Source of the DNA: Kappaphycus alvarezii | Lineage: Eukaryota; Rhodophyta; Florideophyceae; Gigartinales; Solieriaceae | DNA length: 64,000 bases | Direction of reading: 5' to 3' | Assembly (NCBI GenBank): GCA_002205965.3 | Contig: NADL03000765.1 | Location: forward strand, 434,001 to 498,000 | Part shown: one piece after another, positions 3 to 64,000 of the stretch | How positions within the stretch are numbered: position 1 is the first letter of the stretch | How the letters are laid out: the number at the start of each line of letters is the position of its first letter | Made by a program: the position numbers and the translations under genes | The notes under the pieces: generated by a model | What the model was told of the DNA's origin: nothing | Database searches by the model: none | What the model saw: the letters and a program-made list of their open reading frames with translations, nothing else

Positions 3-1391
3 GATGCAGAACCTGCAGTCAGAACCTTTTCAGTTGGCTGTAAAGTACTTGTAGTACATGGAAAAGCAATGCAGCAGGCTGTGAAGTGGCCGGCCTTCCA
101 AACCAAGTACTCGAACCCTTGCATCGTCACGGAGGAAAGACACCCGCACTATCAGCTCTGTTCAAGCTCAGGGAAGAGATCAAGGAGGGCCATCCATGCA
201 CGTCGTCTGGTCCCTTACCATCAGAGGCCTGAAGAATTCCTTCTCACACAGGACTATGCGCAACCACGGGGCATACTCATCTTTAACTATAGAATGATTC
301 CTATGGGAGGAAAAAGGGCCTGGGAATGGATCATCCCGGTTACGCGGGACTACTACAATCTCCACGTAATCTTCCATTTCTACATTAATATATGCCTATG
401 TTTTCGTACGTTGAACGGACCATTGCTACCTGAAGAAGATTTCCGACTATTAATAAGAGTTCTATTTTCATTCCAAAACGGAAGGTTCACGGAAGCAGGT
501 CCAGAGTTTGTGGAGGTAATATATCATTACTCTGTAGGAAGATATGGAATGGAAGCTGCCGGAGACTTGTCGCAAACGTATCTGAATATTATCCGTCCAA
601 TTTACGTATTTCTCAAGAACAACCAAGATGTGCGACTGAGAGGTTACGCCTTACCCCCGGATATGGAATACAGGCTGGTCCCGTATCCTCTATGGGAACC
701 TTACGTTTCTCCGCCACAAATTGGGAACGTTGGAGGCGGCGAGGATCCTCCTGAAGCAGTGATGATGACCAGAGGAGGACCTTCAGGAGACAACAACCCG
801 CCCAGAAGAGGTTCCGGTCGTCCCCCGAGAGGACCTCGTGCAGGTCCCAGTACGTCAGGAGCTGGTCGCGGCCATTCATCGGAACCGTACACCACAACTT
901 CATCTCTAGATCTACTTCACAACCATGCACAGCATATAGTCGGAAGAAGAAGATTATCTTTTTGGCTGCGCAATATCTCCGAGGATGCGAACGATGCACA
1001 GGTCATTTCTTATTTCATGATAAGCATCTGTTTATGTTTTAGGGCGCTACATGGACCGCACTTATCTTACGAAGATTCGTTCTTGATGATGCGCGTCCTC
1101 CTTTCTTATCGGCATCCATTCCTCCGGCATCTTCCAGAAGAGTTTGCATATCACATATATTTTTTCACTCTTGGAAGATTCGGAAGAGTCACGGAAGAAG
1201 AATGTATTCAACCCCACCTCGATGTTATCAAACCAATATATGAGGCTATGCTACAAAGTGAGGTACCAGTAATGCGAACCTACTTTTTAGAGCATCATAT
1301 TGGTAATCAGTTGTATCCGTACCCGTTTGAGAGACCATACATTTTATCAATAAGACAGCGATCACTAACGGAAGCAGAAGAAGAGCAGTGA
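3..1391 (+). CDS. Ty3/gypsy polyprotein C-terminus: integrase GPY/F-like domain plus duplicated unknown domain (5' partial)
   Basis: The frame is open from base 3, so the first ATG at 69 is internal and the gene starts outside the window. The first ~75 residues read like the C-terminal GPY/F region of a gypsy integrase: FSVGCKVLV, then KWPAFQTKYSNPCIV, then IHARRLVPYHQRP. Counting from the ATG at 69, a domain of about 125 residues follows twice (about 85-212 and 297-424). The two copies share ICLCFR.L.GP, a central hydrophobic helix-like stretch and a YPY/F..PY ending. A Gly/Pro/Arg-rich linker (about 213-285) joins them. I do not recognise this domain. A polypurine-like stretch and an LTR follow directly, as expected at the 3' end of a gypsy element. 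A decayed relative of the second domain copy lies at 30.3-30.84 kb. The integrase assignment is motif-based; the extension's function is unknown. Confidence 0.72.
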   Translation, partial: DAEPAVRTFSVGCKVLVVHGKAMQQAVKWPAFQTKYSNPCIVTEERHPHYQLCSSSGKRSRRAIHARRLVPYHQRPEEFLLTQDYAQPRGILIFNYRMIPMGGKRAWEWIIPVTRDYYNLHVIFHFYINICLCFRTLNGPLLPEEDFRLLIRVLFSFQNGRFTEAGPEFVEVIYHYSVGRYGMEAAGDLSQTYLNIIRPIYVFLKNNQDVRLRGYALPPDMEYRLVPYPLWEPYVSPPQIGNVGGGEDPPEAVMMTRGGPSGDNNPPRRGSGRPPRGPRAGPSTSGAGRGHSSEPYTTTSSLDLLHNHAQHIVGRRRLSFWLRNISEDANDAQVISYFMISICLCFRALHGPHLSYEDSFLMMRVLLSYRHPFLRHLPEEFAYHIYFFTLGRFGRVTEEECIQPHLDVIKPIYEAMLQSEVPVMRTYFLEHHIGNQLYPYPFERPYILSIRQRSLTEAEEEQ

Positions 1392-1434
1392 CGAGTCGGG
1401 ACGTTCGCCTTGAGCGAGAGGGCGTGATGTGCGC

Positions 1435-2145
1435 AAATTCGCACACGAAAAAAATCTAGATGAGGACCATAATTGTATACAGTATCGGAATTGGGAAGAT
1501 ATTTTTACAGTTTTTGAATTTGCAAGATATTTTTAATTTGGGTGAGTGTGGCAAATTCGTCGGTTGATTTTTTCATTTTAGGACACGCTGTCATAGTAGA
1601 TGTCAGTACAGTTCCAGGTTTTTGGTGATACTACAAGTAGCTCTGAAAGGTCTATATAATGGCCACATCAATTCCCACCCCTGGCCGATGGGTGGCTGGC
1701 ATGGGTATGGCACCTAGATATTTACCTTGAGGAAATATCTTCTAATAGTCTCTCTGGTTCACACGATTACCGTGAATACATTTTATGCTTATTATTATGT
1801 TTGTTTGAGACGTTTGGGGTAGCCAAAAGTCTATATAAGCCGAGTAAACTGCTTTCTTTAGTGGAGGTGAAGCAAGTTGGCAGACAACTTCAAGCCAAGT
1901 CCCGAGTAGTAGGAAGTTGAGAGTCAACTTCGGACCCAAGAAAACTTTTTCTTAAGCTAGTCGCAGAGCGTCGGTGGTAGACCCTGCCCCTTTTATACTT
2001 GCTTGTAGCTTCCTCAACTCTCTTCTATATACACTCCCTTTTGTTCGTTCAACAATACCACGGCAGCACTTTTGTCGCTCGCAACACCTCCTTCTCAAGG
2101 TAATTGGTTCTGAGGATCTCCTCCCCCGCCGATTTACCCCTATCA
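1435..2145 (+). mobile_element. 3' LTR of the gypsy element G1
   Basis: A purine-rich tract (about 1410-1434, gagcgagagggcg) after the pol stop is followed by TG at 1435 or 1438, and the repeat ends in ...ctatca at 2145. From 1711 to the end it is clearly homologous to the other LTR copies in the window (B, C, H, M and others). The shared part includes the TATA sequence tctatataag (near 1830), the ggcagacaacttcaa block and the cttttgtcgct block. The part before 1711 lacks the acidic-protein ORF found in other copies but has its own tctatataatgg near 1650. The exact 5' boundary is inferred. Confidence 0.6.
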
Positions 2146-3243: not shown

Positions 3244-4715
3244 TGTTAGACTCGCGCGGATCGGAAGGTATTTTTTTGTCGCCATCATCTGCCGAATTTT
3301 AATTTACTGTACTATCTCCCCTTGCTCAAAATTTCTTGTAGTTCTGGCACGTCCTCGCCCTCTATGGCCCTTGCTTATCCTTATCGTGGTCCTTTCCGAA
3401 TTCACTTCCACTTTTTCTAGATTTTTTTTCAATATCTACCCCACTAAATCGATCCGGAATCAATCAAGTTCTTTTTCACTTTTTGCTTACCTCCGTCTCC
3501 AAATTGATTTTTCTGAGAAAAAGGGCGCAAATGCACTATTACAAATTCCGTTGCAGATTTATCTTACCTATTCCAAATCTATATAATGGGCCCTCGGGGC
3601 CTACTTAAAGCCTTGTATTCCAAGTTTCGAACCTCCCCGATCATTATACTAACCGCACCTCTCTCCCTACCCACTCAAAACACCCTCAATTGCCTACCAC
3701 TCCCAAAGCCCACCAAAATGGACAACCTATGCCCTTTGGAATCATTTCCGAAAATCGCCACCCCGCCCCCTAAACTTCATTTCCTTAATCCCTTTCGGCC
3801 TTTGTAACCGTGATGACTACCTACGCCGAAAAACCAAGAAGATGGTGATCGAATTAGTGTGTCGCTTGCTCGTCGAGGATGAGGTGGTGGACGTAGGTGA
3901 GGGGCAGGAGTTGGTAGTGAAGGAGGGAGCTGGGAGGACTTTCGAGGAGTTAGAACCTCTGGAATTGGTCTACGAGAATGAAGTTGACTAGGAGGATGAC
4001 ATGCAGAATGACAAGGAGAATGAAGACGAAAATGAAGAGGACGAGGAGGATGAGAGGTGGGGAGACTTGAGAATGTTGGATGGCGGGGCCAGGGCTGGAC
4101 ATTATGGAACAAGTGGTCTCGACGCTGAAACAAGATGGGGGTAACTTTAGTGGTTTAGATATCTCTCAGGAGGAAATAGAGAGATATGAGCCGTTCGCAG
4201 ATATTTGTGGAGACTGGTTGGGCAGCACGGATATTTTGGAGGATTTTTTTGGGTCTGATCTATAGAATGGGAAATAAGAGGACCAGATCGATTGTTCGTT
4301 TCTTAGGCATCTTTTTTTTAGAGTATATAATCCACAAAAGTTGTCTTTATGCATTTATTGGTATTTTTGAAATTTTGTTCGGACTGCAGAGGTAGCCAAA
4401 AGTCTGTATAAGCTGAGAAAACCGCTCCCCTGGGATAAGTCAAGCAAGTTGGCAGACAACTTCAATTCAAGTCCCGAGTAGTAGGAAATTGAGAGTCAAC
4501 TTAAGTCCCATGAAAAAGTTATTCTATGCTGGTCGCAAAGCATCAGTGATAGACCCTGTCCCTTCTATAGTTGCTTTTAGCCTTCTCAACTGACCTTCTT
4601 ATCGACTCCTTTCTGTTCTTCCAACTATATCACGGTAGCACTTTTGTCGCTTGCAACACTTCCGTCTTGGGGTAATTGGTTATATGTATCTCTTCCCCGA
4701 CGATCTATCCTTTCA
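3244..4715 (+). mobile_element. LTR-like element copy B, complete, 5-bp target duplication acttg
   Basis: The element starts with tgttagac and ends with cctttca. It is flanked on both sides by acttg (3239-3243 and 4716-4720), giving 1472 bp with TG...CA ends. This pattern is typical of integrase-made insertions, so the copy is best read as a solo LTR or an LTR-derived unit. Inside are a first TATA-like region near 3580, a decayed acidic-protein ORF (3718-4265), the second TATA (tctgtataagctgag, about 4403) and the conserved R-U5-like tail. Confidence 0.75.
3718..4265 (+). pseudogene. acidic LTR-encoded protein, decayed copy
   Basis: The ATG at 3718 begins MDNLCPLESFPKIA, matching the family N-terminus MSNLRPS.PI.K. 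Several stops and frameshifts follow. The Glu/Asp-rich middle survives around 3880-4060. The C-terminus is open (4080-4265) and keeps the family pattern DQVV.TLK.DGG, LDISQEEIE and FADICGDWLGSTDILEDFFG. Compared with the intact copy at 63209-63838, the N-terminal half is out of frame, so this copy should not make the whole protein. Confidence 0.6.
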
Positions 4716-16225: not shown

Positions 16226-16239
16226 GTCTGGTGGACCAA

Positions 16240-16912: not shown

Positions 16913-16946
16913 GCCTACCTGAATAAGTCTCAGGTACTTTTCGCAG

Positions 16947-20154: not shown

Positions 20155-20315
20155 TTAACCTTTTATTCTTGCTTCTAGCCCTCGCAACTCTCTTCCATAT
20201 ACACTCCTTTTTGTTCGTTCAAATATACCACAGTGGCACTTTTGTCGCTTGCAAACCCTCAATCTTGGGAGAGTTTGTTCTGAATATCTCTCTTCTCGAC
20301 GATTCACATCTATCA
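20155..20315 (+). mobile_element. LTR-like element copy E, 3' tail only
   Basis: It begins inside the tail (cttttattcttgcttctagc) and ends ...catctatca, matching the 3' ends of the other copies (ctcttctcgacgatt region). The 5' part is missing; an N1 fragment takes its place. Confidence 0.6.
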
Positions 20316-20446
20316 GTAGTCGCTGTGATGGATGCACACTGTTAGGAGACACTTTTTTGTGTAATGGTTTCAGATTAGCTCTTTGGATGCATTTGCACAG
20401 CATCAATACTAGTTACGTGGCTGAGTTGTTTTCAGTATCTTTGTAA

Positions 20447-20700
20447 CTTTGATCTAGATATTCCGCAGGAGGCAATGGAGAATTCTAAGCCGTTCGCGGA
20501 TATTTGTATGGACTGTCTGGGCAGAACGGATATTTTGTGGGAACTGTTTGGCTCTCATCGAGACGACTAAGATATTTAGGAAGGAATCTAGATATTTATC
20601 CTGATGGTATGTGCTGTTAGATTTTCTCGTTCACACGATTCCATTTGATGCATTATATGGTTCTTAGTATGTTTATTTGGGACTTTAGGACTACTGTAAA
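20447..20700 (+). mobile_element. LTR-like element copy F, fragment with acidic-protein C-terminus
   Basis: Reads LDLDIPQEAMENSKPFADIC, then DCLGRTDILWELFG and a stop. The family 3' sequence follows (tagatatttatcctgatgg, then gtttatttgggacttt), stopping abruptly near 20700 before the TATA-bearing tail. Closest to copy I. Confidence 0.55.
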
Positions 20701-23186: not shown

Positions 23187-24192
23187 TGTGAATGGGGGGT
23201 TATTTACTGTGGTAGATATGTGGGTTGGTATCCAGTAAATTTGTACCGGAGCGTAGATATCGTATCATTGTCAAGCCAATTGCGAAACCGTACGATGTGT
23301 CGAAAGCTGTGGATGGCACTCCAATCTACCAGAAGGTGGAAGGCGGGACAGCCAGCAAACAAGCGGCATTGGAGGTTACTGTAAAAGCGGAGTGCCGCTG
23401 TAAAAGAATGGCTCTAACCTTCGAAACCCGTTCCATTGCGCGGGTGGCAGCGGTTCTCGCGAGTTACTTGGCGACGGAGAACGCCGACAGATGCCAACCT
23501 CCAAGCGTTGAGATGGGAACAGGAACCAGCCTGTTTCTCCCAGGCAGCTCAGCAAGGAACCCTTGGTATCTCCGCTGCTTCTCTGTGTGAGCTGCGTTGA
23601 GAATTGTGAGTGGGTTGAAAGCCCTGGCTCTTGCGTGGGTGGGAGCGAGCGGGTTGACAAAGGTTACGTCGAAATAATCCGTGCCACCGCCGGCTCCCAT
23701 CTCCCTGATATCCGTCCTCGTCCTGTTTTCGTAGTGTAGACGAGGTTCGATGAATGGACTGATAGGGGTAAATCGTCGGGAGAAGAGATACTTAGAACCA
23801 ACTACCCCAAGGCGGAGATGTTGCAAGCGACAAAGCGCTACCGTGGTATAGTTGAACGAATAAAAAGTAGTGTATATGGGAGAAAGTTGAGAGGGCTACA
23901 AGGAAGTATAAAAGGGGCAGGGTCTACCACCGACGCTCTGCGACCAGCTTAGGAAAAAGTTTTCTTGGGTCTGAAGTTGACTCTCAACTTCCTACTACTC
24001 GGAGCTTGACCTGAAGTTGTCTGCCAACTTGCTTGGCCTCTCAGGGAGGAAGCACTTTACTCAGCTTATATAGACTTTTCGGCTAATCCTAAAGTCTCAA
24101 TCAAACATACTAAATACCATAAAACGCATAAAAGGGCATCTTGTGGATGTGATTGGCCAGAGGGAAGATATTAGCAAAGAAAATATCTGTAT

Positions 24193-24699
24193 CTACTCCT
24201 CACAATCGTCATTCTCAAGATAAGAACCAGATAACTCTTCCAAAATATCCATACTCTCAATAAAATCCCTACAAATTCTCTCGAACGGCTCAGAATGATA
24301 AATGGATTCATCAGACATATCAAGATCCTCCAACCCTTCCTCGCGACCCTCAGCCTTCGCTCTAACCCCATCCGAAGAATCCGAGATGACGATCACGCCC
24401 TCACTCTCCCCTCCACCCCCCACAGCAACTTCCCCACGATTATACACCACCGGTTCCCACGGAGCTACAGGGTCTTCATCATCCTCGGATCCCTCCACGT
24501 CCGACTCAGTCCCTTCTGACTCCTCCTCCTCCGCCTCCTCCAAGAAGTGCCGACGAACCCACTCCCGAAAACGCTCACGGTCCATCCTCCTGAAGTAGTC
24601 GTCTTAGTCTGTTGGCCATTAATTCATTAGAGCTAGGCCATTGATGGGGCGAGAGGGGCGGTTTTTGGTGATGGGGGCGGAGGGGCGAAGGTTGTTCAT
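24193..24699 (-). pseudogene. acidic LTR-encoded protein with SIM-like motif, two stops near N-terminus
   Basis: The ATG at 24699 starts MNNLRPSAPITKNRPSRPIN. Two TAA codons follow in the same frame around residues 26-31. From 24585 to 24193 the frame is open for 130 codons: MDRERFREWVRRHFLEEAEE, a Glu/Asp/Ser tract and APWEPVVYN. Then comes SEGVIVISDSSDG, a hydrophobic V-I-V-I core followed by Ser/Asp as in SUMO-interaction motifs (about residues 62-73 of the open part). The C-terminus reads LDMSDESIYHSEPFERICRD and ESMDILEELSGS. No localisation signal is recognised. The function is not known; the resemblance to SIMs and acidic activation domains is by pattern only. Confidence 0.6.
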
Positions 24700-25066
24700 T
24701 TTGATAGACGTTGGGGAATGGGAGGCAATGTAGGGTGTTTTGGGTGTATCGGGGGGAGGGGTGATAAGTAAAATGATCGGGGACATTTGGAACTTGGAAT
24801 AAAGGGGTTTAAATAGACTCCCGGGCAGGTTCTATAGATTATAAATAGGTAAAATAAATCTGCAAGGGATTTTGCAGTAGTGCATTTGCGCCCTTCTTCT
24901 CAAAAAAGGCGAATTTAGAGGAGGAGGTAAGCTAAAAGGGAAAAGGAACTTGATTCGGGGTCGATTCAGAGGGTTAAATAAAGTATAAAAATATCTAGAT
25001 AAAATGGAAGTAAATTTGGAAATGACGGTGGGAGAAGTTAGGGGCGGGATCGTTGTAGGTTGCTGG

Positions 25067-25158
25067 ATTACACGAAGGGAGGACCACTTCCTGTATTACG
25101 TGAAGGGAGGACTATTTCCTGTATTACATGAAGGGAGGACCATTTTTTTTGTATTACA
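25067..25158 (-). repeat. minisatellite at the LTR H 5' end
   Basis: About 28-bp units (taatacaggaaatggtcctc plus ccttcacg) repeated three to four times, beginning at the terminal TG of the LTR. The same array opens LTR copies N and P. Confidence 0.7.
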
Positions 25159-27141: not shown

Positions 27142-28470
27142 TGATAGGGATAACTAGTCGAGAGAGGAGATACTTAGAACAAACTACCCCAAGAATGAGG
27201 TGTTGCAAGCGACAAAAGTGCCACCGTAGTACAGTTTAACGAACAAAAATGAGTGGATAAGGAAGACAGTTGCGAGGGCTAGAAGCAAGAATAAAAGGGG
27301 CAGGGTCTACCACTGATTCTATGGGACCAGCAAAGGAAACTTGCTTCTTGAGTCTGAAGTTGACTCTCAACTTCCTACTACTTGGGAGTTGACTTGACGT
27401 TGTCTACCAACTTGCTTAAACTCTCCATGAAAAAGCAGTTTAATCACCTTATATAGATTTTTTGGCTAACCCTAAAGTCCCAAATAAACATACTAAGAAC
27501 CATATAATGCATCAAATGGAATCGAGTGAACGAGAAAATCTAACAGCACATTCCATCAGGATAAATATCTAGATTCCTTCCTAAATATCTTAGTCGTCTA
27601 GATGAGAGCCAAACAGTTCCCCCAAAATATTCATTCCACCCAGGCAGTCCATACAAATATCCGCGAACGGCTTAGAATTCCCCATTGTCTCCTTCGGAAT
27701 ATCTAGATCAATGAAGATTCCTCCATCCGGTTGCAAAGTCGGGATCCCGAGGTCCATATTTTCCAGACCCTTCCCCACTATTCCAGCACTTTGCATGTCT
27801 ACCTCCTACTCATCTTCCTCATCCTCCTCTTCACCTTTCTCTTCATCTTCGTCAGAAGAGTCAGAGATCACGATTACCCCCTAAATATCCCCTTAGTTCT
27901 CCATGGGAGGTACCCCACCGTTGGACACCAGTGGCTCCCACGGTTCCATCCAGCCCTCCTCCTCTTCTTCCTCCTCTTCCTCCTCTTCCTCCTCTTCCTC
28001 CTCTTCCTCCTCCTATTCCTCCTCCTCTACCTCTGCCTCTTTTGTCTGCTCGAAGCCGTTACGCCCGACCCACTCCCATACGCGTTCTTGGTCCATTTTT
28101 CTTAAGAAATCATCATATTCTGTTGGAGTATTTGCCATCAGGGCCAGGGAGTTGTGGGAACCCCGGCCTCGGGATGATTTGGCGATGGTAAGGGGCGGGC
28201 GGAGGTTGGACATGTTGAGGGCCAAAAAATGGATGGGCCGATGGGGTAGTTGATGGCAGGAGGGTTGCCTATACGACGTCGAGCTAGACCTTTAAATACT
28301 GCGATGTCAACAGATATGTTGGAAAGTTACAATATTCGACTAATCTCATCTGTGTTGTCTTTTTTTCGTATTTGCGCCGAAATAGTATTTGAAGTCCGAT
28401 TTTGCGGCATTTGCTAATAATATAGGCAAAAATTATACAAAACAAATATAGATTCCCAACAAGGGTGAAA
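27142..28470 (-). mobile_element. LTR-like element copy I
   Basis: On the minus strand it ends ...ttatccctatca at 27142, next to gcccc. The tail carries the conserved blocks and tatataag near 27450. The acidic ORF remnant is at 27590-28213. The 5' part extends at least to about 28300 (atttaaaggtctagc TATA-like, gacgtcg) and probably to about 28470; no matching target duplication was found, so that end is uncertain. Confidence 0.6.
27590..28213 (-). pseudogene. acidic LTR-encoded protein with strong SIM-like motif, frameshifted
   Basis: The ATG at 28213 starts MSNLRPPLTIAKSSRGRGSH, then the DDFLRKMDQERVWEWVGR block. A long Glu-rich tract follows, encoded by a (cctcctctt)n-like run at about 27955-28035 on the plus strand. 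In one frame near 27875 it reads GVIVISDSSDEDEEKGEE, the best SIM-like motif in the window, immediately followed by acidic residues. The C-terminus is in another frame (27590-27796): MQSAGIVGKGLENMD, then LDIPKETMGNSKPFADIC and LGGMNILGELFGS. Length variation in the Glu run probably caused the shift. Confidence 0.6.
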
Positions 28471-41119: not shown

Positions 41120-41155
41120 TAACGAGAAAAAAACCCTTGCGATCGAAATGATAGG

Positions 41156-41584: not shown

Positions 41585-41586
41585 TA

Positions 41587-46837: not shown

Positions 46838-48326
46838 TGTTGTTACAAAAAGGATTTTTTCTATGGGAGATTGGAAATCTCCACATGCTTATGACTTCTT
46901 CATCCCGTAAGTTTCCAAAACCAACTCTTCAAACCAACTTTATTTTACGAACAAAATTATGAAACAAAATTTCCCCTATGAATCCAAATTTACTGTACAA
47001 CATTATTTCCGTTTTATTTCCGATGATTTTGGTCCTTTTTTCCCAAAACATCTTTCTACTCGAGATCCGCCTCGTCCTCCAAATTCAGTTCCGATATTTT
47101 ATCAAGCAGGTGTTTAGTTGTTGCACTGATTGAATCCAAATTCAAAGCTGCGGCATTGTCTCACATTTTCTATTTCGTCAAATCTTTCGAAGACGTCACC
47201 CTATGTAAAGTCCGAAATCGACTTCCTTAAGGCAAACCAGCCGCCATCAACTACTCCATCTCTTCACCCTTTTTTTGACCTCAACATGACTAACCTCCAA
47301 CAGTCCCTCACCATCGCCAAGTCATCCCGAGGCCGCCACCTCGTTAAAGCTCTGGCCCTTTTGGCCAGTGGACCAGCCGATTATGATGATTATTGTCGAA
47401 GAATGGACTGGGAAAGCATTCGGGAGTGGGACCGCCGACACTGCTTCGAAGAAGCAGATGAGATATGGGAGAAGGTATAGGAAGAGGTAGAAGAGCAGTA
47501 GTCTGAGGCTGAGATGGAAGGATCGGAAGAAGAGGAAGACTGGGTGGAACCTTTAAAGCCACTAGTGATCAATGGTTGGCGAGCTACCCTAGAGAACGGA
47601 GAGGATACAGAGAGAGTAATCTTTATCTCTGATTCTTCTCACAAGGATGAAGAGGGGAACCAAGAGGAGGACGAGAAGAATAAGGGGCAGGGAGAAGTGG
47701 AAAGTGTTGGAATGGTGGGGTTGGGGCTGGACACTATGGACCAGGTGGTTTCGACGCTGAAACCGGACGGGGGCAACTTTAGTGTTCTAGATATCTCCAA
47801 GGAAGAAAACGAGAATATTAACCAGTTTGCAGATAATTTTGAAGCTTGCTTGGGTAGAAACATCTCGAGGATTAAGATTATATGAAAGAAATCTATATAT
47901 TTATTCTGATAGTATTTGCTGTTAGTCTTTCTCGTTCACAACATTCTAATTTGATGGATTTTGTGGTACTTATTAACGTTTTCTTTGAGACTTTAGAGTT
48001 AGCCAAACAGTACGTATACGTTGAGTAAACTGCTTACTCTTATATAGGTCAAGCAAGAAGACAGACAACTTCAAGCAAAGTCACGAGTAGTAGGAAGTGG
48101 AGAGTCAACTTTAGACCCAAGAACAATTTTTTCTTACGCTGGTCACAGAGGATCAGTACTATATCCTGCCCCTTTTATACTCCCTTTAGTCCCTCTCGAC
48201 TATTGTCCTTACCCGCCCCTCTTTTTTGCCCAACCATACCACACTAGCACTTTTTTCGCTTGCCAAACCTCCTTCTTGGGTTATTTTGTTCTGAGTATCT
48301 CTTCTCCAGACGAATTACCTCTATCA
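46838..48326 (+). mobile_element. LTR-like element copy M (unit 1)
   Basis: It probably starts at tgttgttac (46838) and ends ...cctctatca at 48326. The following tttct is matched only imperfectly by ttttt before the start. The 5' part aligns with copy C. It holds the acidic ORF (47286-47885) and the tail with blocks acaacttcaagc and cttttttcgcttgcc. The downstream TATA position reads cgtatacg and looks weakened. Confidence 0.65.
47286..47885 (+). pseudogene. acidic LTR-encoded protein, full length but with two in-frame UAG codons (unit 1)
   Basis: The ATG at 47286 starts MTNLQQSLTIAKSSRGRHLV, then DDYCRRMDWESIREWDRRHC. Two TAG codons (47478 and 47499) fall in the acidic stretch. The same frame then stays open to 47885: EGSEEEEDWVEPLKPLVING, TERVIFISDSSHKDEEGN (SIM-like), an acidic Lys/Glu stretch and DQVVSTLKPDGGNFSVLDIS. 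The final DILEELFG block is degraded. Apart from the two stops the frame is continuous for 200 codons, making this the best-preserved SIM-bearing copy. Confidence 0.6.
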
Positions 48327-48373
48327 TTTCTTTTCATTTTTAGTCTCTATGTATTAATGAATTATCGGCTAGT

Positions 48374-50979: not shown

Positions 50980-51731
50980 TGTAATACAAAAAATGGTCCT
51001 CCCCTCATTTAATACAGGAAATGGTCCTCCCTTCACGTTATACAGGAAATGGTCCTCCCTTCACGTTATACAGGAAATGGTCCTCCCCTCGTGTAATCCA
51101 GCAACCTACAACGATCCCGCCCCTAACTTCTCCAACCGTCATTTCCAAATTTACTTCCCTTTTATCTAGATATTTTTATACTGTATTTAACCCTCTGAAT
51201 CGACCCCGAATCAAGTCCCTTTTCCCTTTTAGCTTACCTCCTTCTCCAAATTCGCCTTTTTTTGAGAAGAAAGGCGCAAATGCACTATTGCAAAATCCCT
51301 TGCAGATTTATTTTACCTATTCCTAATCTATAGAACCTGCCCCGGGAGCCTATTTAAACCCCTTTATTCTAAGTTCCAAATGCCCCCGATCATTTTACTC
51401 ATCACCCCTCTCCCCCCACACACCCAAAACACCCTACATTGCCTCCCGTTCCCCAACGTCTATCACAATGAGCAACCTTCGCCCCTCTGTCCCTATTTCC
51501 AAAAACCGCCCTTCCCGTTCCATCAATGGCCTTCGTCTCGCCGCCTACGGGCCAACCGATGCCGACGACTACATCCGGCGGCAAACAAAGAAGCAAATCA
51601 TCGAGTTCGTGCGCCGCCTCTTCATAGAAGAAGAAGCGAGGGAGGTAAGCCCGGGAGAGGCTGACAAGGTCGAGGAGGAGAGCGGGGAGTCCTTCGAGGA
51701 ATGGTTAGCCCCTGAGCTAGTGTACGAGGCT
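50980..51731 (+). mobile_element. LTR-like element copy N, cut at the duplication junction
   Basis: Begins tgtaatac with the four-unit minisatellite, then the U3 leader, a TATA (ctatttaaac, about 51350) and the first 87 codons of the acidic ORF, ending at the join to unit 2. The full version is copy P. Confidence 0.8.
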
Positions 51732-51902
51732 GAGAAATTGTCTTCAACTGGTAAAATGTTCTGTTCGGAGTACTATCGGAGACCTTATGTAATACATCGA
51801 ACTTTTGAATTTAGAGACTCATCGAATATTTGGTCTCGAGATACAACCATTTTTTCTGTCTCCATCTCAAAAAACTTGTCACCTTTATTTGTTATGGTTT
51901 AA
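51468..51902 (+). pseudogene. junction ORF: truncated acidic protein fused to antisense copia sequence
   Basis: Residues 1-87 equal those of the intact protein at 63209-63838. After YEA the frame runs into the start of unit 2 (EKLSSTGKMFCSEYYRRPYV), which in unit 1 is a meaningless frame on the strand opposite copia. This is a product of the rearrangement, 144 codons long, with an intact start and leader. No function is implied. Confidence 0.7.
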
Positions 51903-54360: not shown

Positions 54361-55405
54361 GCTCGAGATGTGCGTCAGAGAGTTTCAATAAGGTAAAGGC
54401 GCTGGCCCAACAATCGACATTCTGTCATAAGGAATATGCTGTTGGAAAGGTCTCCGGAGGGTCTCTGATGGGGTTTTTATCAAATTCTCTTAATGAGAAC
54501 AATAGCTGTGTTCGGGACTTTCAGATGCCCAAGTTGTCATCGTAGATCTTTTGAGACTGGAACAGGCGATTGCAGCAGACACCAGGAATATTTATTTCTC
54601 CACTCGGCGTGGTTCTGACACTTCCGACATCCTCAGTGCTGCTCGAACTCCTTTGATTCGGACATCATCAGCTAGAAAATATGGCGAAAAATGAAGTAAT
54701 CACTCGGCTTGGAGGTCAAGACAGGAAATGGAGATCGATAAGTAGAAGAGAGAAGGAGAGGAACCGGAGAGAGAGGCTCGTCGGAGAGAAACGTCGGAAC
54801 CCTTAAAGGTGGAGGAGCAGTAGGGGACAAAGGAGACGGAGCAAAAGTACCTAGAGACAACGTCGGCTGAACTATAGTAGAAAGTGCACGAGCGAAAGAT
54901 GGAAAAATTAAAGAAACAAATATGATGGAAGAAGCTGACTTCGTGTTTCGATGTCCTTAGTTTGCCTTTTTGAAGCGAGTAGATGAATCAAGAAATGACC
55001 TCTGTGGGGCAAATTTTATCTGTCAGTAGACAGTGGATGGATGTTCTCCAAGTGGTCTAGCATGTATGCATCACAATTCAAGCTTGTTGACATGTCACAA
55101 TTTTCCTCCAGAAGCTGTCCACATGCTTTTCTCATAATCCAAGCGTGTGTCTTTTTCTATGAAAAACCCGTCCAAATACATAAATTTAACACCTTTCAAT
55201 GCCTCTACAAAAGTATCTCCGTTTGAGACTACCTTAAGTGGGTGGAAAACTTGCATTTTTCTGTATGGATTTATTTCATTCATTTTGATATCTCATTCTC
55301 ATACTGCACCTTAATCTTGCACTACGGAAAAAAGTTTACAAGTTAGCAGTCTATACGTGTATTGTGAAAACAATGTCAATACATCAAGCCGTTTCATTGC
55401 TCACG

Positions 55406-58032
55406 TCAGATTGGATAGGGCTTGAATAGTTCCATGCTTCTTTGCACACGTGAAGAAAACTTTTTTTGTGTTATACCCCGCCCCACGGCTAGCTCTGAGG
55501 TCCCCGCCGCGAAAAACCGCCGCAGAACGCGGTTTTGCCCATCCAGTGAGATCCAATCTTCTTCCAGTAGAAGATGTACTTCTCGAAGCGGAACTAAGAA
55601 AATATCTTTAGCCCTCTCCCCTGAGAATAGTTTCCACGAGCAGGACACAAATTCTCGACATCGACCACTGAGTTTTCAACTGCATCTTTGTCCAACACTG
55701 TTGATTTTTGGAAAATACGCCCCATAATACGATCACAGTGATCAACCTGTTTTAAATGTGTTATTTTAAGGCCTGAGCCCCACTTTCTACTGAAAAATGT
55801 TTTCCTCACGGCCTCACCAGCCAGGTTAAAGTCATATTCCATAAAATGTAGGACTCTCTTAAACTAAATATTATACCCCAGTAAGTTAGAACGGATTTTG
55901 TTCTCCGCATTGTTGGAGGTACACTCGAAAGAGGCGTAAAAATTTCCTCTCGGTCCCATAGGACGTCTTCTTCGAGATAAAAAAACCACCCTTTTGGCAA
56001 TCACCGCCACTGGATATTTTGACACCACCGCATGTAATCAATGTGTCATCCTACACAGCTTCCCGAGCCTCACTTATGGTTTAACCAATATCAGATTATA
56101 TGTAAGAAAAAAGCAATACTAGACGTCGGAGACTCATATTCTAGCGGAATTCTAACCTCTTACCTCGCATCGACTTGAGCGTTATGAACTGGTAACCATC
56201 ACCGGACTTAATGGAAAAATCATCAAATCTCGGCATTTAGACGGCTTTTCTTGCTATCTATTGAATTATAGGTTACGAAATAATCCTTCTAAAACCTTGA
56301 CGCTCTCGAGGAATTTTGCAGGGCCACCTATTGATTCGGTTGCATTTGACCGGGCTTTTAGATTATTCTTGATAAAACCAATGTACGTCTCAACACAAAC
56401 CTGGTTATAGTTTGCTGGTAGCATTCCGTTCTCAACATGTTTCCCCAAGTAAAAAAGCAAATGTAGAGTGAGCTTAAAAATAGGCACTCTATTTAGATCA
56501 TTCCGAAATAATTGCTTTCAAAAAATGAAAAGAAGGGAAAGGAATGAACTGATAGTTCATTCAGATCATCCTTGCAGAGTTGCCACCTGTAACAGAAATC
56601 AAAAAAGTTCGTAAAAGATCGGAGACCTTTTAGAGTTTAAGCGTCTACTTGTCCACCGAACAGAAAGAGTCAGTAACTTAGGGAAAACTGCTTCAATTCT
56701 GATGCTTTCTCCAACTTTTGTAAAGGAGCTGGGCGTGATTTAGAACTAAATCTAGAATGAGATGTTCCTCTACCCATTCGCGGCTGGACCTCATCTATCA
56801 TATCCCGTTTATCCTGGCTGATGATGTAGAGCTCCTCCTAAGCATATAGTACCTCAGGTTGGTTGTGGTCTCCTCTTTGAATCAACAGCTTATCTTTAGC
56901 AATATTCTTACCAAGATGCGTTGTGTCCAGCGAAAAAGATTTAAAGGGTATTCAAATCGGCAGGGAAAAGACTGCTGTCTTTTCACGAATCGCAGATTCG
57001 ATAGAGACGCGTTTTCTCTGCGGAATCGAAATAACCGAGCTCCTTGAGATCATTTCCTGTATAGAAAGTATCGTACTAGGATCCAAAGACCTTAACTATG
57101 ACGAATTATACAGTCGCATTAATCTCACCCGCCAAAATGCGTCTGCAACCCGCTCATTTGATGAAAAGTAGTACCTTTAGATGGTCTGTTGTAGACCGAT
57201 TCGAGCTCGCGAAAATGTAATACGCACTTTGCAGAGGTATCAGTAAGACCATAGATCTTTGCAAGGGACCGCAAGTCTAATGTCATTCACTGTATATTTA
57301 CAAAGCCGTGGCCCTCAGCACTGTCGAAGAAAAGCATTTCTGTGCCTTCGTTTGAGATGATCTCATAAATTTCTTGTACGAGTGGGGAGAATGAAGTGTT
57401 ATTGCTAGAAATTTTCTTCCTTCCACCTTAGAAACCAAACGGTATCACGTTGATCATTGGGGACCGATGTTTTGGGGCGATGTTCATGTTCAGTGCAACA
57501 ATATACAGTTTTCATAGCCTTGGTTTCCCAAAAGCCTGAAAGGCATCGGTGGAAGGTGCAATTAAGATACAAAGATAGAGCTCATATGTCCACCATGCCG
57601 ATCTGCAATGCCCGTGTAAAAGGGAACAATCAGTACATTGCTCATGGGAATCCTTACTCATTACATACCGCGAATAATCGCCGAGAAATGCATATTTACG
57701 CTGACGAAACAAAATGAAGGGCACCATAGGATCCCTAAACCACGCAAGAATCCGCGGAAGTAAGGAGATGTATTTGAAATATCTGAATTTTGTCGAAATA
57801 CCTTGCTCGCAGCACACCTGCCGTCGTTCAGCAACACCAACTTCGTCAGTCCGCGCAAAGATCTAAAAATCGTTCTCTGGTAATGATTTATACGCAGTAT
57901 CAATTGGATTCATTTTTCATCATGCCCACATTGAAACTACTAAACCTGCTCGGAGAGTTCGGCAAAGGAAAGACTCAAATGAGAATATTCAGGACAATAC
58001 GAGCCCGGTTAGTCGAAATGTTAACATATTAA
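55406..58032 (-). pseudogene. possible DNA-transposase relic (unit 2)
   Basis: Same broken frames as 43678-46310, including LPANYNQVCVETYIGFIKNN at about 56330-56430. No useful differences from unit 1 were seen. Confidence 0.25.
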
Positions 58033-58565
58033 TCACTGTGTGTCGGTACTCACGGAAATAAATTGCTAGTCACAGATAGCGCCATCAAAATACATCACAT
58101 ATGAAATATGAGATTTTTTCTGAGGATAGTAAAAAAGACAAGGACAGAAATAGCAAGGCTAAGAAGATGATTTGAAAGCGGTTTGAAATGGTCTTGTCAA
58201 ACAAAGATATAGACAGAGGTCATTTGTCATATATGGCGTGAATAATTAAGCCAAAGAACCGATATTTGTGATTCAAGATATGATTGAAGAAATATAAGCG
58301 GTAAACGAGCTACGCATTTACAAAAAGGCATCGCAAAAATGGGCCATTAGGACATTTTATTCTCAGAGGATGGCAAGCGAAGCATTTAGGCATCAACCAG
58401 AAATCTAGAAAGGCACCTTTGGATGTAGAGGAAGCCCTAAAGACATCAAAAATTCATGTTCATTGTGCCGAGTATATGTAAACATTATTCCGAATTGCGC
58501 TTGACATTATGCAGGGTACTTTTGGAAGCCAAGTATGGTACTTATAGCGATAAAGACGTTTTTTT

Positions 58566-60054
58566 TGTTGTTACAAAAAGGATTTTTTCTATGGGAGATT
58601 GGAAATCTCCACATGCTTATGACTTCTTCATCCCGTAAGTTTCCAAAACCAACTCTTCAAACCAACTTTATTTTACGAACAAAATTATGAAACAAAATTT
58701 CCCCTATGAATCCAAATTTACTGTACAACATTATTTCCGTTTTATTTCCGATGATTTTGGTCCTTTTTTCCCAAAACATCTTTCTACTCGAGATCCGCCT
58801 CGTCCTCCAAATTCAGTTCCGATATTTTATCAAGCAGGTGTTTAGTTGTTGCACTGATTGAATCCAAATTCAAAGCTGCGGCATTGTCTCACATTTTCTA
58901 TTTCGTCAAATCTTTCGAAGACGTCACCCTATGTAAAGTCCGAAATCGACTTCCTTAAGGCAAACCAGCCGCCATCAACTACTCCATCTCTTCACCCTTT
59001 TTTTGACCTCAACATGACTAACCTCCAACAGTCCCTCACCATCGCCAAGTCATCCCGAGGCCGCCACCTCGTTAAAGCTCTGGCCCTTTTGGCCAGTGGA
59101 CCAGCCGATTATGATGATTATTGTCGAAGAATGGACTGGGAAAGCATTCGGGAGTGGGACCGCCGACACTGCTTCGAAGAAGCAGATGAGATATGGGAGA
59201 AGGTATAGGAAGAGGTAGAAGAGCAGTAGTCTGAGGCTGAGATGGAAGGATCGGAAGAAGAGGAAGACTGGGTGGAACCTTTAAAGCCACTAGTGATCAA
59301 TGGTTGGCGAGCTACCCTAGAGAACGGAGAGGATACAGAGAGAGTAATCTTTATCTCTGATTCTTCTCACAAGGATGAAGAGGGGAACCAAGAGGAGGAC
59401 GAGAAGAATAAGGGGCAGGGAGAAGTGGAAAGTGTTGGAATGGTGGGGTTGGGGCTGGACACTATGGACCAGGTGGTTTCGACGCTGAAACCGGACGGGG
59501 GCAACTTTAGTGTTCTAGATATCTCCAAGGAAGAAAACGAGAATATTAACCAGTTTGCAGATAATTTTGAAGCTTGCTTGGGTAGAAACATCTCGAGGAT
59601 TAAGATTATATGAAAGAAATCTATATATTTATTCTGATAGTATTTGCTGTTAGTCTTTCTCGTTCACAACATTCTAATTTGATGGATTTTGTGGTACTTA
59701 TTAACGTTTTCTTTGAGACTTTAGAGTTAGCCAAACAGTACGTATACGTTGAGTAAACTGCTTACTCTTATATAGGTCAAGCAAGAAGACAGACAACTTC
59801 AAGCAAAGTCACGAGTAGTAGGAAGTGGAGAGTCAACTTTAGACCCAAGAACAATTTTTTCTTACGCTGGTCACAGAGGATCAGTACTATATCCTGCCCC
59901 TTTTATACTCCCTTTAGTCCCTCTCGACTATTGTCCTTACCCGCCCCTCTTTTTTGCCCAACCATACCACACTAGCACTTTTTTCGCTTGCCAAACCTCC
60001 TTCTTGGGTTATTTTGTTCTGAGTATCTCTTCTCCAGACGAATTACCTCTATCA
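58566..60054 (+). mobile_element. LTR-like element copy O (unit 2 copy of M)
   Basis: Identical in layout to 46838-48326. Starts tgttgttac, ends cctctatca at 60054. Confidence 0.65.
59014..59613 (+). pseudogene. acidic LTR-encoded protein with two UAG codons (unit 2)
   Basis: Same 200-codon frame as 47286-47885, with the same two TAG codons at about 59206 and 59227. The SIM-like VIFISDSS is at about 59343-59366. Because both units share the stops, the stops predate the duplication. Confidence 0.6.
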
Positions 60055-60101
60055 TTTCTTTTCATTTTTAGTCTCTATGTATTAATGAATTATCGGCTAG
60101 T

Positions 60102-60308
60102 CTAAAGCACGCGCAAAGCACTCAAGCTTGAGTTTCTTTTTTCTGTTGGATTTATGAGGTCTGGGGAGAGAGTTAATTCGATGTGGCGAACGCTAAGAAA
60201 CGCTTGAAGAACTGAATTCATATAACAAAAATTGCCCAGGTTATGCAAGCCTAGAGGAGGCCCTGCGCCTACTTTAATAGCCCACAATGGCGAGCTATGG
60301 CGGGACAT
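60102..60308 (-). pseudogene. ubiquitin-specific protease fragment (unit 2)
   Basis: Same 68-codon frame as 48374-48580, with GLHNLGNFCYMNSVLQ and the catalytic Cys kept. No difference from unit 1 was noticed within it. Confidence 0.5.
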
Positions 60309-61507
60309 TTATTCCACGACGCGCTTCTGTGGGTTCCGCCCAGACCTGGTTGGAAGTTTTTTTTCTTCTTCCGTGGTCTTGAAATTGCATTCGCCGGCAA
60401 TAACCCACCCTCTAATGGAGGAACTAGCGGGGATAATGAGGAGGCATAGTTTCGTCAGGGGCCTTTTGCAATGTTCTATTCCACTTTATATGCGGCCTCC
60501 AAAATGCAGTAATAGACAAAATCATTACATAAAACCCAATAAAGATGTCCATATTCAATGGAGAGAAACAATACCTGTCCAGATGACTGGGAATGGGCCG
60601 CGACATGCGTAGATTGTACAGAGTTGGTACTGTGGGAATCTTTTGGAGTTTATTTTTGCTTACCTATGAATTATCATAACATGCAATATAGACGACCTTG
60701 GCGCATACATGCTCATCCTAGGATGCTAAAATTCTACATTCCGAAATCAAACATTGTGGGAAAAACCCACTTCTAAATGCAAGAACCGGACGGTTACATT
60801 ACGCAAAACCATCTCTGTGACATGGTAATTCCCGGTCAATCCAATTGTATTGCGCAGATGTGCAACATGCGAACATGAAGTCAAAAGAGCTGAATCCATT
60901 GATGCTTTTCGCCAGTGTATTTGGGCGGTATGTTACCAAGTCTGTATCTAATACCTGCCAAGATGGCTGCAAGTCATGATATCAATCATTCTCATAAGAA
61001 AAGGATGGAAAGCAAAGGATTTTCCCCTGGCGCCGATGGGAAGCAATCTTTAAAGATTGTTGCCAACGAGTCTGTATACTTGGCATTGAAGTCACGCATC
61101 TTCGTTTTAGAGAGTGATTCAAGGGCCTATAATTAAAAATCGACAAAATCTGATGTTGAATAGCATTTTTCAAATCTAGCTTAAAAGTTGGTAGCCGTCA
61201 ATCGAAAATATGTGAGCCTGATTGTCTTTTTCGAGTGAATAAATCGTTCTGCTTCACAATTTCTTGATATTAAACATTCCCGTGTATCGGTTGGCGATAC
61301 AGTAGACTTATAGAAGACTTTTTGCTCTGGATACTGGTCTTTTTCTGGAAACCTCCCAGAAATCTCAGTAGGGGTGTTCAGGGTTCACCATTATCGAAGG
61401 TGACCGACATAAGCTAAGCTGATGATCGGAAAGCTGTGACAATGGCAGAGTTTAGAGCCAATGAAAAATCTCGAAATACTCCCGCTATATGAAAGGGGAA
61501 ATTTGGG

Positions 61508-61635
61508 GTGTTTTTAATGCACGAAAAATATGGTCAGCTGTTCCCTGAGGGATGTCGTGATGGTAAAGGCTTACAATGTAAAGAAATGGCAGGAAGACGT
61601 CAAAACGCTAGAAAACTGACGGGAGGCCGGCCAAC
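61508..61635 (+). repeat. short coding-like repeat with H3-tail-like peptide (unit 2)
   Basis: As 49780-49905, with one change (PEGCRDG instead of PGGCRDG). Confidence 0.5.
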
Positions 61636-62720
61636 AGGCACGCTGCGTTGGACATTACTGCTGCTGCGGCATGACGCTGTGATAAGATTTCTTTGACCTT
61701 TGCGTACGTAGGTCTCCCTTGCCCTCGTAGCGACGTTGCGTGCGACGTCTGTTAGCAACGCGTGGGCGTCCGGGTGCAATTCCCCGAGGGTAGAGATAGG
61801 GACGGGCACTAGCCTACTTCCGGCGGAAGACGCGATAAAGGACTCGTATCTTCTGTGTTTCGCCGTTCTTGCCGCGTTAAGCGAGGTGAGTGGGTTGAAT
61901 GTCCTCACTCTCCTGTTCGAGGGCGCTAGGGGGTTGACGAAGGTGACATCGAAGAAGTCTGTTCTGCCAGTTCGTCCCATTGCGCGGATATCGGGTCTTG
62001 TGCGGTGGACCCCTTCTCGCGGCTCGATGACTGGATGTCGCGCGGCTTTCATGAGATCGCTTGCCAATAAACGAACCTGACAGTCGTGTCTTCGCGTCCT
62101 TTCGCCCCCGTGTAAGCAGTGCAACAGATGGTCGCCGAAACAGTCGAGAGTTTCGGGGCAGTTCCGCTTGGGGCATGGTGTTTCCGGAGGAAAGAGCGGG
62201 ACTTGGCAATAGTATTGGAACCATATTGAGAATTCTCTTGGTTCAATGCTAGTCTTAAGGCCCGGAGATGTGGTGCAGTACACCCAATCTTTCGCGCCGG
62301 GGAGCACCATGGAGGCACGGAAGGCCTGCCGTCTATTGTCGCCCACATCGATCTCCTCTTGCACCCGCTCGTGGATGGCGTCCGATAGTGTCTTCTGTGA
62401 TGGTGTTTTGTTTGAGCAGAGGGCACTAAAGGGGATAATCCTGGACTGGGAGCAAGAGAGGGACCAAATCTGGTGCGCCTCGACGATGTCTCGGTAGGTA
62501 GAGAGATCCGTAATTGCCGCTGGAGGGGCTGCACACAGCCTGTTGGACGCTGCGCTGGAGGCGAGGAAGGCTGCAGCTGCAATTGACTTCGCCGAAGTGA
62601 GTCCAAATCCCAGTGATGGCTTCTTGGCGGTGATCGGTTTCATGGGCAACTGCAGTTCTCGAAATATGTCGGGGTCGAGGACGCCCCCAGCCAGTGTGCG
62701 CACACAGTTCTCCATCATTG
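61600..62720 (-). CDS. non-LTR N1 copy g: open C-terminal part with restriction-like endonuclease
   Basis: The longest open N1 frame: 376 codons read from 62730, the first three or four of which come from the adjacent LTR. It lacks the RT domain, being cut at 62720 by LTR P. Visible order: a post-RT linker with SNKTPSQKTLSDAIH (about residues 106-120), then YCTTSPGLKTSI. Next is a zinc-binding C186-X4-C191-X9-H201-X3-C205 region (CPKRNCPETLDCFGDHLLHC). Then come RTRPDI (245-248) and FFDVTFVNP (D261), the PD...D pattern of the R2-type restriction-like endonuclease, and finally PVPISTLGE.HPDAH. The last part is shifted: the conserved QRHAAAAVMSNAACLLAG lies in another frame. In an intact element this nuclease would nick the target DNA for target-primed reverse transcription. 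This copy cannot move by itself. Confidence 0.72.
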
Positions 62721-62830
62721 TGTAATACAAAAAATGGTCCTCCCCTCATTTAATACAGGAAATGGTCCTCCCTTCACGTTATACAGGAAATGGTCCTCCC
62801 TTCACGTTATACAGGAAATGGTCCTCCCCT
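62721..62830 (+). repeat. terminal minisatellite of LTR P
   Basis: Four units of 27-29 bp sharing acaggaaatggtcctccc, beginning right at the LTR terminus. The matching array in copy N is at 50980-51089. Confidence 0.75.
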
Positions 62831-63090
62831 CGTGTAATCCAGCAACCTACAACGATCCCGCCCCTAACTTCTCCAACCGTCATTTCCAAATTTACTTCCC
62901 TTTTATCTAGATATTTTTATACTGTATTTAACCCTCTGAATCGACCCCGAATCAAGTCCCTTTTCCCTTTTAGCTTACCTCCTTCTCCAAATTCGCCTTT
63001 TTTTGAGAAGAAAGGCGCAAATGCACTATTGCAAAATCCCTTGCAGATTTATTTTACCTATTCCTAATCTATAGAACCTGCCCCGGGAGC

Positions 63091-63100
63091 CTATTTAAAC
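63091..63100 (+). promoter_or_regulatory. TATA-like element upstream of the acidic ORF
   Basis: ctatttaaac about 110 bp before the ATG at 63209. Counterparts lie at about 51350 (copy N), 24805 (copy H, minus) and 7455 (copy C, minus). It could drive an mRNA for the acidic protein; not shown by sequence alone. Confidence 0.45.
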
Positions 63101-63208
63101 CCCTTTATTCTAAGTTCCAAATGCCCCCGATCATTTTACTCATCACCCCTCTCCCCCCACACACCCAAAACACCCTACATTGCCTCCCGTTCCCCAACGT
63201 CTATCACA

Positions 63209-63838
63209 ATGAGCAACCTTCGCCCCTCTGTCCCTATTTCCAAAAACCGCCCTTCCCGTTCCATCAATGGCCTTCGTCTCGCCGCCTACGGGCCAACCGA
63301 TGCCGACGACTACATCCGGCGGCAAACAAAGAAGCAAATCATCGAGTTCGTGCGCCGCCTCTTCATAGAAGAAGAAGCGAGGGAGGTAAGCCCGGGAGAG
63401 GCTGACAAGGTCGAGGAGGAGAGCGGGGAGTCCTTCGAGGAATGGTTAGCCCCTGAGCTAGTGTACGAGGCTCAGGAAGATGAGGAGGAGGAAGATGAGG
63501 AGGATGAGGAGGAGGAAGAAGAGGAAGAGGAGGAAGAGGATGAGGAGGAGGAAGAAGAGGAAGAGGAGGAAGAGGATGAGGATGAGGAGGAGGAGGAGGA
63601 GGAGGAGGATGAGGGAACAGGGGGCATGGAAAGTGTTGGACTGGTGGGGCCTGGAATAGAGAGTATGGATCAAGTTGTGCCCACGATGGAACCGGATGGA
63701 GATATCTTTAGTAGTCTAGATATCTCCCAGGGGGAAATAGAGAGTTGTGAGCCATTCGCAGATATTTGTGGGGACTGCTTGGACAGCATGGATATTTTAG
63801 AGGAGTTGTTTGGATCTGATTTAGAGAATGGGAAATAA
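63209..63838 (+). CDS. acidic LTR-encoded protein, intact, 209 residues
   Basis: The only uninterrupted copy of the family. The ATG has A at -3 and the start is conserved among copies (M.NLRPS.PI.K). Residues 1-58 form the conserved basic N-terminal part with DDYIRRQTKKQIIEFVRRLF (33-52), helix-like. A linker contains ESFEEWLAPELVYEA (75-88). Residues 88-135 are an almost pure Glu/Asp tract encoded by a gaggaggaagat-type repeat. Residues 139-209 are the conserved C-terminus: ESVGLVGPGIESMDQVV, LDISQGEIESCEPFADIC and LDSMDILEELFGSDLE, acidic and amphipathic like some activation domains. Unlike copies C, H, I and M it lacks the VIVISDSS motif, its place being taken by the acidic tract. The family is unknown to me. 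Lying inside an LTR, between two TATA boxes, it may be an accessory protein of the element. Confidence 0.65.
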   Translation: MSNLRPSVPISKNRPSRSINGLRLAAYGPTDADDYIRRQTKKQIIEFVRRLFIEEEAREVSPGEADKVEEESGESFEEWLAPELVYEAQEDEEEEDEEDEEEEEEEEEEEDEEEEEEEEEEEDEDEEEEEEEEDEGTGGMESVGLVGPGIESMDQVVPTMEPDGDIFSSLDISQGEIESCEPFADICGDCLDSMDILEELFGSDLENGK

Positions 63839-63964
63839 GAGGACCAAATTAATTGTTAGTTTCTTAAGTATCTTTTGCTTAGAGTATATTGTCCACACAA
63901 AGTATTTTTATGCATTTCTTGGTATCTTCTGTAGTTTTGTTCGGACTTTAGGGGTAGCCAAAAG

Positions 63965-63974
63965 TCTATATAAG
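63965..63974 (+). promoter_or_regulatory. core TATA of the LTR (genomic-RNA promoter candidate)
   Basis: tctatataag followed by ctgagtaaactgctt is the most conserved block among LTR copies (1828, 4403, 6150 minus, 24070 minus, 33535). Its position near the start of the conserved tail fits a U3/R promoter. Confidence 0.55.
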
Positions 63975-64000
63975 CTGAGTAAACTGCTTCCTCATGGAGA

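Follow-up and report, generated by a model that had tools for sequence, protein, structure and literature searches.

An open reading frame for an acidic protein lies inside the long terminal repeat of a high-copy Ty3/Gypsy retrotransposon in the red alga Kappaphycus alvarezii

Accessory open reading frames (ORFs) that reach into the U3 region of a long terminal repeat (LTR) are found in foamy viruses (bel/tas) and lentiviruses (nef), but these ORFs start outside the LTR, whereas the ORF described here lies wholly inside it. The nearest parallel is sag of mouse mammary tumour virus (MMTV), which the accessible part of one source calls an "LTR-encoded ERV protein" (PMC11998498). In both cases a protein gene is carried by the LTR of a retroelement, but sag belongs to a mammalian retrovirus and encodes a type II membrane protein, whereas the carrier here is a Ty3/Gypsy element and the product is acidic and looks disordered. 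Cassandra LTR retrotransposons have a 5S-related sequence in the LTR (PMC10853983). As far as the available text of that source describes them, they also have a gene-like unit with its own promoter (here a candidate promoter) inside the LTR, but this unit is related to an RNA gene and belongs to a non-autonomous plant element, whereas the unit here would encode a protein and its carrier element has gag-pol. The rice Retrosat2/RIRE elements, which have long LTRs, contain the fast-evolving extra ORF0 of unknown function (PMC3485330); in the available part of that account, ORF0 is a separate ORF upstream of gag-pol and is not placed in the LTR, in contrast to the ORF within the LTR here. In the Podospora element crapaud, subfamilies differ mainly in the U3 ahead of the TATA box, and recombinants occur (PMC10787394). 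LTR subfamilies that diverge in U3, with recombinants, are also seen here, but the divergent U3 of crapaud is under 200 bp with no U3 ORF reported in the accessible text, whereas the U3 here holds an ORF. Among the papers listed in our literature searches, judged by title and opening of the abstract, none describes an LTR with a protein ORF in a retrotransposon other than a retrovirus. LTRs are usually seen as DNA with a regulatory role, and a solo LTR as a scar that holds no gene, but here the LTR carries a protein gene, and because this gene sits in the terminal repeats, the solo LTRs left behind carry the gene or its remains.

The window (i.e., the whole 64,000-nucleotide stretch of DNA that was analysed) corresponds to C761:434001-498000 in the contig numbering of the genome searched (336,021,096 bases, 884 contigs). 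The ORF-bearing unit at 62721 is an LTR of 1,560 bp in all when read past the window edge. It begins with TGTAATACA after the flank CATTG and ends with CCCCTATCA before the flank CATTG. The TG…CA ends and the exact 5-bp duplication CATTG/CATTG identify it as a solo LTR, which is of type I (the subfamilies are described below). The following features were located in it:

62721..64000, + strand: solo LTR, type I, recognised by its ends and the CATTG duplication, cut by the window end; the whole LTR is C761:496721-498280
62722..62842, + strand: 28-bp tandem repeat, 4.3 copies (Tandem Repeats Finder), 5' end of U3
63092..63098, + strand: TATA-like box TATTTAA, candidate U3-internal promoter, 117 nt before the ORF
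63209..63838, + strand: acidic ORF of 209 aa within U3
63967..63973, + strand: TATA box that opens the conserved tail (TCTATATAAGC), candidate promoter of the genomic RNA, at the U3/R border

The ORF occupies positions 489-1118 of the 1,560-bp LTR, so that the complete ORF is inside the LTR. It is intact from ATG to stop, as the original prediction, made from the letters of the window, had stated. A TATA-like heptamer is present 85-177 nt upstream of the ATG in five of the six subfamily representatives; the search covered 250 nt ahead of the ATG, where shuffled sequences give an expectation of 8-20% per representative, and types I and II have this upstream stretch in common. The tail sequence TCTATATAAGC is exact in four of seven window copies (A, C6, C25, and C62) and altered in B, C27, and C47.

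A profile built from seven window copies matched 19 stretches of the window with E-values of 0 to 1e-8, and the family matches are therefore not due to chance. The further copies are:

1428..2145, + strand: ORF-less 3' LTR (copy A), about 718 bp, behind the purine tract GAGCGAGAGGGCGTGA, with the same type of R-U5
3389..4715, + strand: copy B of the LTR, which retains parts of the ORF (ATG at 3718), no recognisable 5' end
5842..about 7839, − strand: old LTR copy C6 with ORF remains and an internal addition of about 0.57 kb; the position of the 5' end is approximate
20159..20693, + strand: rearranged LTR pieces (20159-20320 and 20443-20693), one with the C-terminal end of the ORF
23760..25158, − strand: solo LTR C25, type II, 1,399 bp, exact duplication GTCCA
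24193..24585, − strand: type II ORF remains in C25, with the SUMO-interacting-like motif EGVIVISDSSDG
27142..28334, − strand: C27, an LTR of type III with an unproven 5' end; what remains of its ORF starts at 28213
46838..48326, + strand: C47, a type III-like copy of the LTR; remains of the ORF at 47286-47885, 5' end probable
58566..60054, + strand: tandem duplicate of the copy at 46838-48326
50980..51737, + strand: duplicate of the 62721 copy, 99.7% identity, cut off at the duplication junction
near 18.8-19.5, 32.9-33.8, 35.9-36.4, and 36.6-37.5 kb: older family copies, profile matches

The TG...CA ends and 5-bp target duplications that the original prediction ascribed to the units are present at 62721 and in C25 (25158), the only two window copies with a demonstrable exact duplication. 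The duplication is ambiguous for C47 and C6, and no matching 5' end was found for window copies other than 62721, C25, C47, and C6. Likewise, most window copies do carry the ORF or its remains, as had been claimed, but copy A is without it and the tandem-duplicate copies do not count as independent. The latter follows from the structure of the region: the stretches 40010-51737 and 51738-63478 form a near-identical 11.73-kb tandem duplication, either recent or an assembly artefact, and the copies at 46.8-51.7 kb and 58.6-63.5 kb lie in its two halves. The junction of this duplication falls in the LTR ORF, just ahead of the acidic tract. C25 is a recombinant, with its first ~525 nt matching type I at 92% and the remainder being of type II.

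The window also contains remains of other elements. A non-LTR reverse-transcriptase (RT)-like family is present at 61603-62718 (−), 49870-50977 (−), 4805-5663 (+), and 25099-25581 (−); in the window, LTRs of both type I and type II sit inside or at the edge of such remains. One non-LTR RT of the window has its best relative in a EukProt transcriptome record. Another Ty3/Gypsy gag-pol (RT, RNaseH, gag) has left remains at 13823-16909 (−), which end next to an exon for a GATA zinc finger (about 16910-17224), and remains of a copia-type element (RVT_2, Pol_BBD) lie at 38676-42631 (−).

No two window copies were seen to flank an internal region as a pair, and the proof of pairing therefore came from the whole genome. 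Same-strand ORF pairs ~7.6 kb apart led to seven stretches (L009-L015), six of which contain direct repeats that include both LTRs and are 96.7-99.6% identical. In L010, the duplication GTGCC is present at both ends (LTR-LTR identity 99.4%), and in L012 the duplication is GATAT (98.8%). A primer-binding-site (PBS)-like sequence, TTTGGTACTCTTGTGG, is located directly 3' of an LTR in all seven stretches, and the purine tract TTGAGAAAGGGG(G)CG precedes an LTR in six. Pfam recognised a protease, RT, RNaseH, and, weakly, an integrase in L010 (20.8 bits for the integrase against a cut-off of 26.5 bits), in Ty3/Gypsy order and in broken frames; zinc knuckles were recognised there by eye. The 62721 unit belongs, as an LTR, to a high-copy Ty3/Gypsy retrotransposon, and the genome has full-length elements in which two ORF-bearing LTRs enclose gag-pol between a PBS-like start and a purine tract (L010 and L012), which bears out the LTR status that had been proposed from the window.

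The exact sequences of these boundaries are frequent in the genome. The PBS complement occurs 1,960 times, presumably nearly always in elements, compared to once for the reversed control; the LTR/PBS junction occurs 821 times and the junction between the purine tract and a type-I LTR 238 times, both with 0 occurrences in the control. Among 43 distinct type-I LTR loci (48 rows minus 5 repeats of the same place), 13 are solo LTRs flanked by an exact 5-bp duplication, 14 continue directly into the PBS-like sequence (5' LTRs), nine lie behind the purine tract (six with the standard motif and three with a variant), and seven are unclassified; these proportions are not genome-wide, since the loci were taken from the best protein matches. 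The ORF, wholly inside U3, is thus present in both LTRs of full elements and in solo LTRs, in agreement with the earlier proposal that a protein gene has spread as part of the LTR. A unit element of non-LTR type (a DNA transposon with TG…CA ends) was considered and rejected, because paired LTRs, the PBS-like start, and the purine tract exist. Tandem arrays of the form LTR-internal-LTR-internal, with a period of ~7.6 kb, were seen at L009, L011, L013/L014, and C335; at L009, L011, and L013 the first LTR too follows a purine tract, which identifies them as LTR-internal-LTR arrays.

Three ORF subfamilies (types I, II, and III) are dispersed in the genome. For type I, to which the ORF at 63209 belongs, at least 157 matches were reported after the best 150 of 11,514 candidates had been scored, and the listed rows are 83-100% identical. 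For type II, at least 152 matches were reported (best 150 of 7,780 candidates scored). In 12 of 20 type-II loci that were read, the 168-aa ORF is complete and begins at its usual start; eight of the 20 are single LTRs with exact 5-bp duplications, one lies behind the purine tract, one runs into the PBS, and L077, L078, L063, L066, and L073 have no recognisable 3' end. For type III, the best 150 of 5,469 candidates were scored, and 12 loci were fetched for their long, stop-free frame. Ten of these are open from the usual start, with one of the ten ending a few residues early. At L115, a type-III ORF is followed by the R-U5 tail and then by DNA like the non-LTR RT family, and consequently there is no proven full-length type-III element. 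A type-III pair 6.9 kb apart in C305 was rejected as an element, as non-LTR RT-like DNA follows the LTR end and no PBS is present.

The protein encoded by the window ORF has a basic N-terminus, a DDYIRRQTKKQIIEFVRRLF stretch, a long Glu/Asp run, and the conserved end LDIS…PFADICGDCLDSMDILEELFGSDL. The start, the order of motifs, and the end are similar across diverged subfamilies; most copies have an acidic, amphipathic C-terminal end, which is altered in C47 and L109. The DDYIRRQTKKQIIEFVRRLF stretch was modelled as a helix with low confidence, and the AlphaFold model of the window protein is uninformative overall (pLDDT 49). Types II and III contain a motif like that of SUMO-interacting proteins (SIM-like motif; VIVISDSSDEDEE-like, GVIVISDSSD with acidic neighbours). 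All 12 type-III loci contain it (one as the variant LIVNSDS), as do all 20 type-II loci (three altered inside the motif). Type I is without this motif and has a longer acidic run in that place. A SUMO-interacting motif is described, in the available part of the source, as a hydrophobic core of four residues, flanked by acidic residues and by residues that can be phosphorylated (Ser) (PMC12751080); judged by the motif alone, the sequence in types II and III fits this description. No Pfam family matched the ORF at E 0.001. Relatives were absent from a search with the N-terminal region (0 of 18 candidates scored; only relatives with exact 5-residue words are found), from a search with a six-row alignment (0 of 3,860 candidates scored, exact 5-residue words in common being needed), and from viral contigs.

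Coding constraint was seen both between subfamilies and within type III. Using window copies found by DNA as subfamily representatives, plus L064 for type II, third codon positions differ more than first and second positions in 12 of 15 subfamily pairs (p<0.04; the pairs overlap and the p-values are uncorrected). For types I and VI, 15, 9, and 33 differences by codon position were counted over 81 codons (p=1e-5), and for types II and IV the excess has p=5e-5; it is absent in III-IV, III-V, and IV-V (p 0.20, 0.56, and 0.22, respectively). In R-U5, none of five pairs had a significant 3-base periodicity (lowest p 0.06). Within type III, variants were counted in 164 codons outside the acidic tract (112 and 380 sites; L112 was left out). 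The variants found in a single copy comprise 38 synonymous and 136 non-synonymous changes, i.e., a per-site ratio of about 1.05 (56, 61, and 57 by codon position). Variants common to at least two copies comprise 35 synonymous and 37 non-synonymous changes, a ratio of about 0.31 (19, 16, and 37 by codon position). The two classes differ with a Fisher p of 5.5e-5, or 0.009 by codon position alone. Since the single-copy class is neutral, the signal of constraint is not a product of having picked open frames. The pairwise ratios in type III range from 0.25 to 1.55 and are lower among more distant pairs. The constrained shared variants and the neutral single-copy variants together indicate that the ORF was selected during amplification and drifts after insertion. 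Between subfamilies and within type III, the ORF was therefore under purifying selection before insertion and neutral afterwards, so that the test of coding constraint named in the original prediction came out in its favour. In young type-I copies, the ratio is about 0.6 for shared and single variants alike, and it is not informative, because the classes are equal and the set was picked by protein similarity. The DNA-chosen type-I set has just six shared variants, four of them at third positions, too few for testing.

This DNA-chosen sample was obtained by scoring the best 40 of 1,874 R-U5 candidates and reading 20 of the 40 upstream. None of the 20 near-identical LTRs has a fully intact ORF. 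The other 20 R-U5 matches include seven that adjoin stop-free ORF matches (one minus the last 8 residues) and one that adjoins a match with four stops. Of the frame-shifting indels in the 20 LTRs, 42 fall within the acidic tract, whose N-terminal side (the N part) has 18 and whose C-terminal side (the C part) has 11 (L090, a rearranged place, is included in these indel counts and excluded from the DNA-chosen variant counts). The breaks outside the acidic tract are mostly 1-base losses, many of them in short runs of G or C, and the purine tract that encodes the acidic residues varies in length among the broken copies. The frame breaks thus look largely like long-read assembly error plus slippage in the tract, although they may also include real decay.

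A subfamily without the ORF is represented at the start of the window:

3..1388, + strand: 3' end of pol, comprising the integrase tail and an extra domain that is repeated; the protein is almost identical to that of L010:6781-8281

By eye, this pol end appears to have two copies of a domain after the integrase tail, with no Pfam match, and a trace of the extra domain is also found at 30244-30576. The pol end is followed by the purine tract and then by the ~718-bp LTR of copy A, which has a closely related R-U5 and a different, shorter U3 without the ORF. The same arrangement is repeated at another target in L116 (GTGGG after the end, 98.3%), and five further junctions resemble it. The ORF-less U3 gave at least 40 rows at 99% or more when the best 40 of 2,182 candidates were scored; 3' LTRs are favoured in this search because the query begins in the purine tract. 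As the ORF-less subfamily, which the original prediction had not anticipated, has the same gag-pol end, the ORF is probably not required in cis. These 3' LTRs of the ORF-less subfamily suggest that the ORF is dispensable in cis, and this subfamily is possibly helped in trans by the ORF product.

We consider it highly probable that the LTR contains a protein gene and that selection has acted on this gene. Against this stands the explanation that the frame is open by chance, because U3 is rich in purines, and that it is non-coding and conserved at the level of DNA or RNA (enhancer, packaging). The long acidic low-complexity tract and the lack of an intact frame in the 20 DNA-chosen LTRs would fit such a chance frame, but it does not account for a third-position excess that is seen in most subfamily pairs and absent from R-U5, for the difference between shared variants (about 0.31) and single variants (about 1.05), or for the like start, motif order, and end in diverged subfamilies, and we regard it as very improbable. 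We give equally little credence to a service of the protein to the host (domesticated or defensive, like sag in mice), for which the solo LTRs would be kept: the ORF is indeed present in solo LTRs and MMTV Sag provides a precedent, as far as that source goes (PMC11998498), but the single-copy variants are neutral, and therefore individual copies do not look maintained after insertion.

It is possible, although doubtful, that the ORF was once useful and is now relaxed, with the recent type-I and ORF-less subfamilies managing without it or receiving its product in trans. The nearly identical ORF-less LTR rows (at least 40 at 99% or more, best 40 of 2,182), the young type-I copies with no detectable constraint, and the type-I protein without the SIM-like motif all point in this direction; on the other side, many type-I and type-II rows are stop-free (these being best matches and thus biased), and the pattern of breaks is partly like that of sequencing error. 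Somewhat less likely is that the protein acts in the particle instead of in transcription, where it would be nucleocapsid-like, target integrase, or be a partner of the capsid. Acidic partners of the basic Gag or of integrase are plausible, but the SIM-like motif and the acidic amphipathic end would suggest nuclear partners.

For the selected LTR-borne gene, the following course of events may be envisaged. The ORF would have its own TATA promoter, about 85-180 nt 5' of the ATG and ahead of the second TATA box, from which genomic RNA would start at R, and a short ORF mRNA could be made from either LTR or from a solo LTR. The ORF would also lie near the 3' end of the genomic RNA. Since the 3' U3 serves as the source of U3 for both LTRs in each round of reverse transcription, every jump would duplicate and homogenise the gene. 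We tentatively suggest that the product is an acidic protein of the nucleus, disordered for the most part, whose SIM-like motif would bind SUMO-modified chromatin or transcription factors, and whose conserved acidic, amphipathic C-terminus (MDILEELFGSDL) may act on the LTR's own promoter; such a protein could be an activator or an anti-silencing factor working in trans. A still more speculative extension, which we hold to be rather unlikely, is that U3 is a free-standing gene for a SUMO-binding acidic nuclear trans factor, which solo LTRs express and the ORF-less subfamily uses. If the gene is expressed, solo LTRs would be coding units, and a conflict could arise between element and host, since the product outlives the element. 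Subfamilies with and without the ORF would then offer a natural comparison for the role of the protein. The signature of selection during amplification followed by neutrality is seen here in a non-retroviral element.

In the R region (63980-64000 and L016), two short inverted repeats, AAGTTGgcagaCAACTT and GAAGTTGAgagTCAACTTC, were observed, which could form RNA hairpins. Both are more or less kept across several subfamilies.
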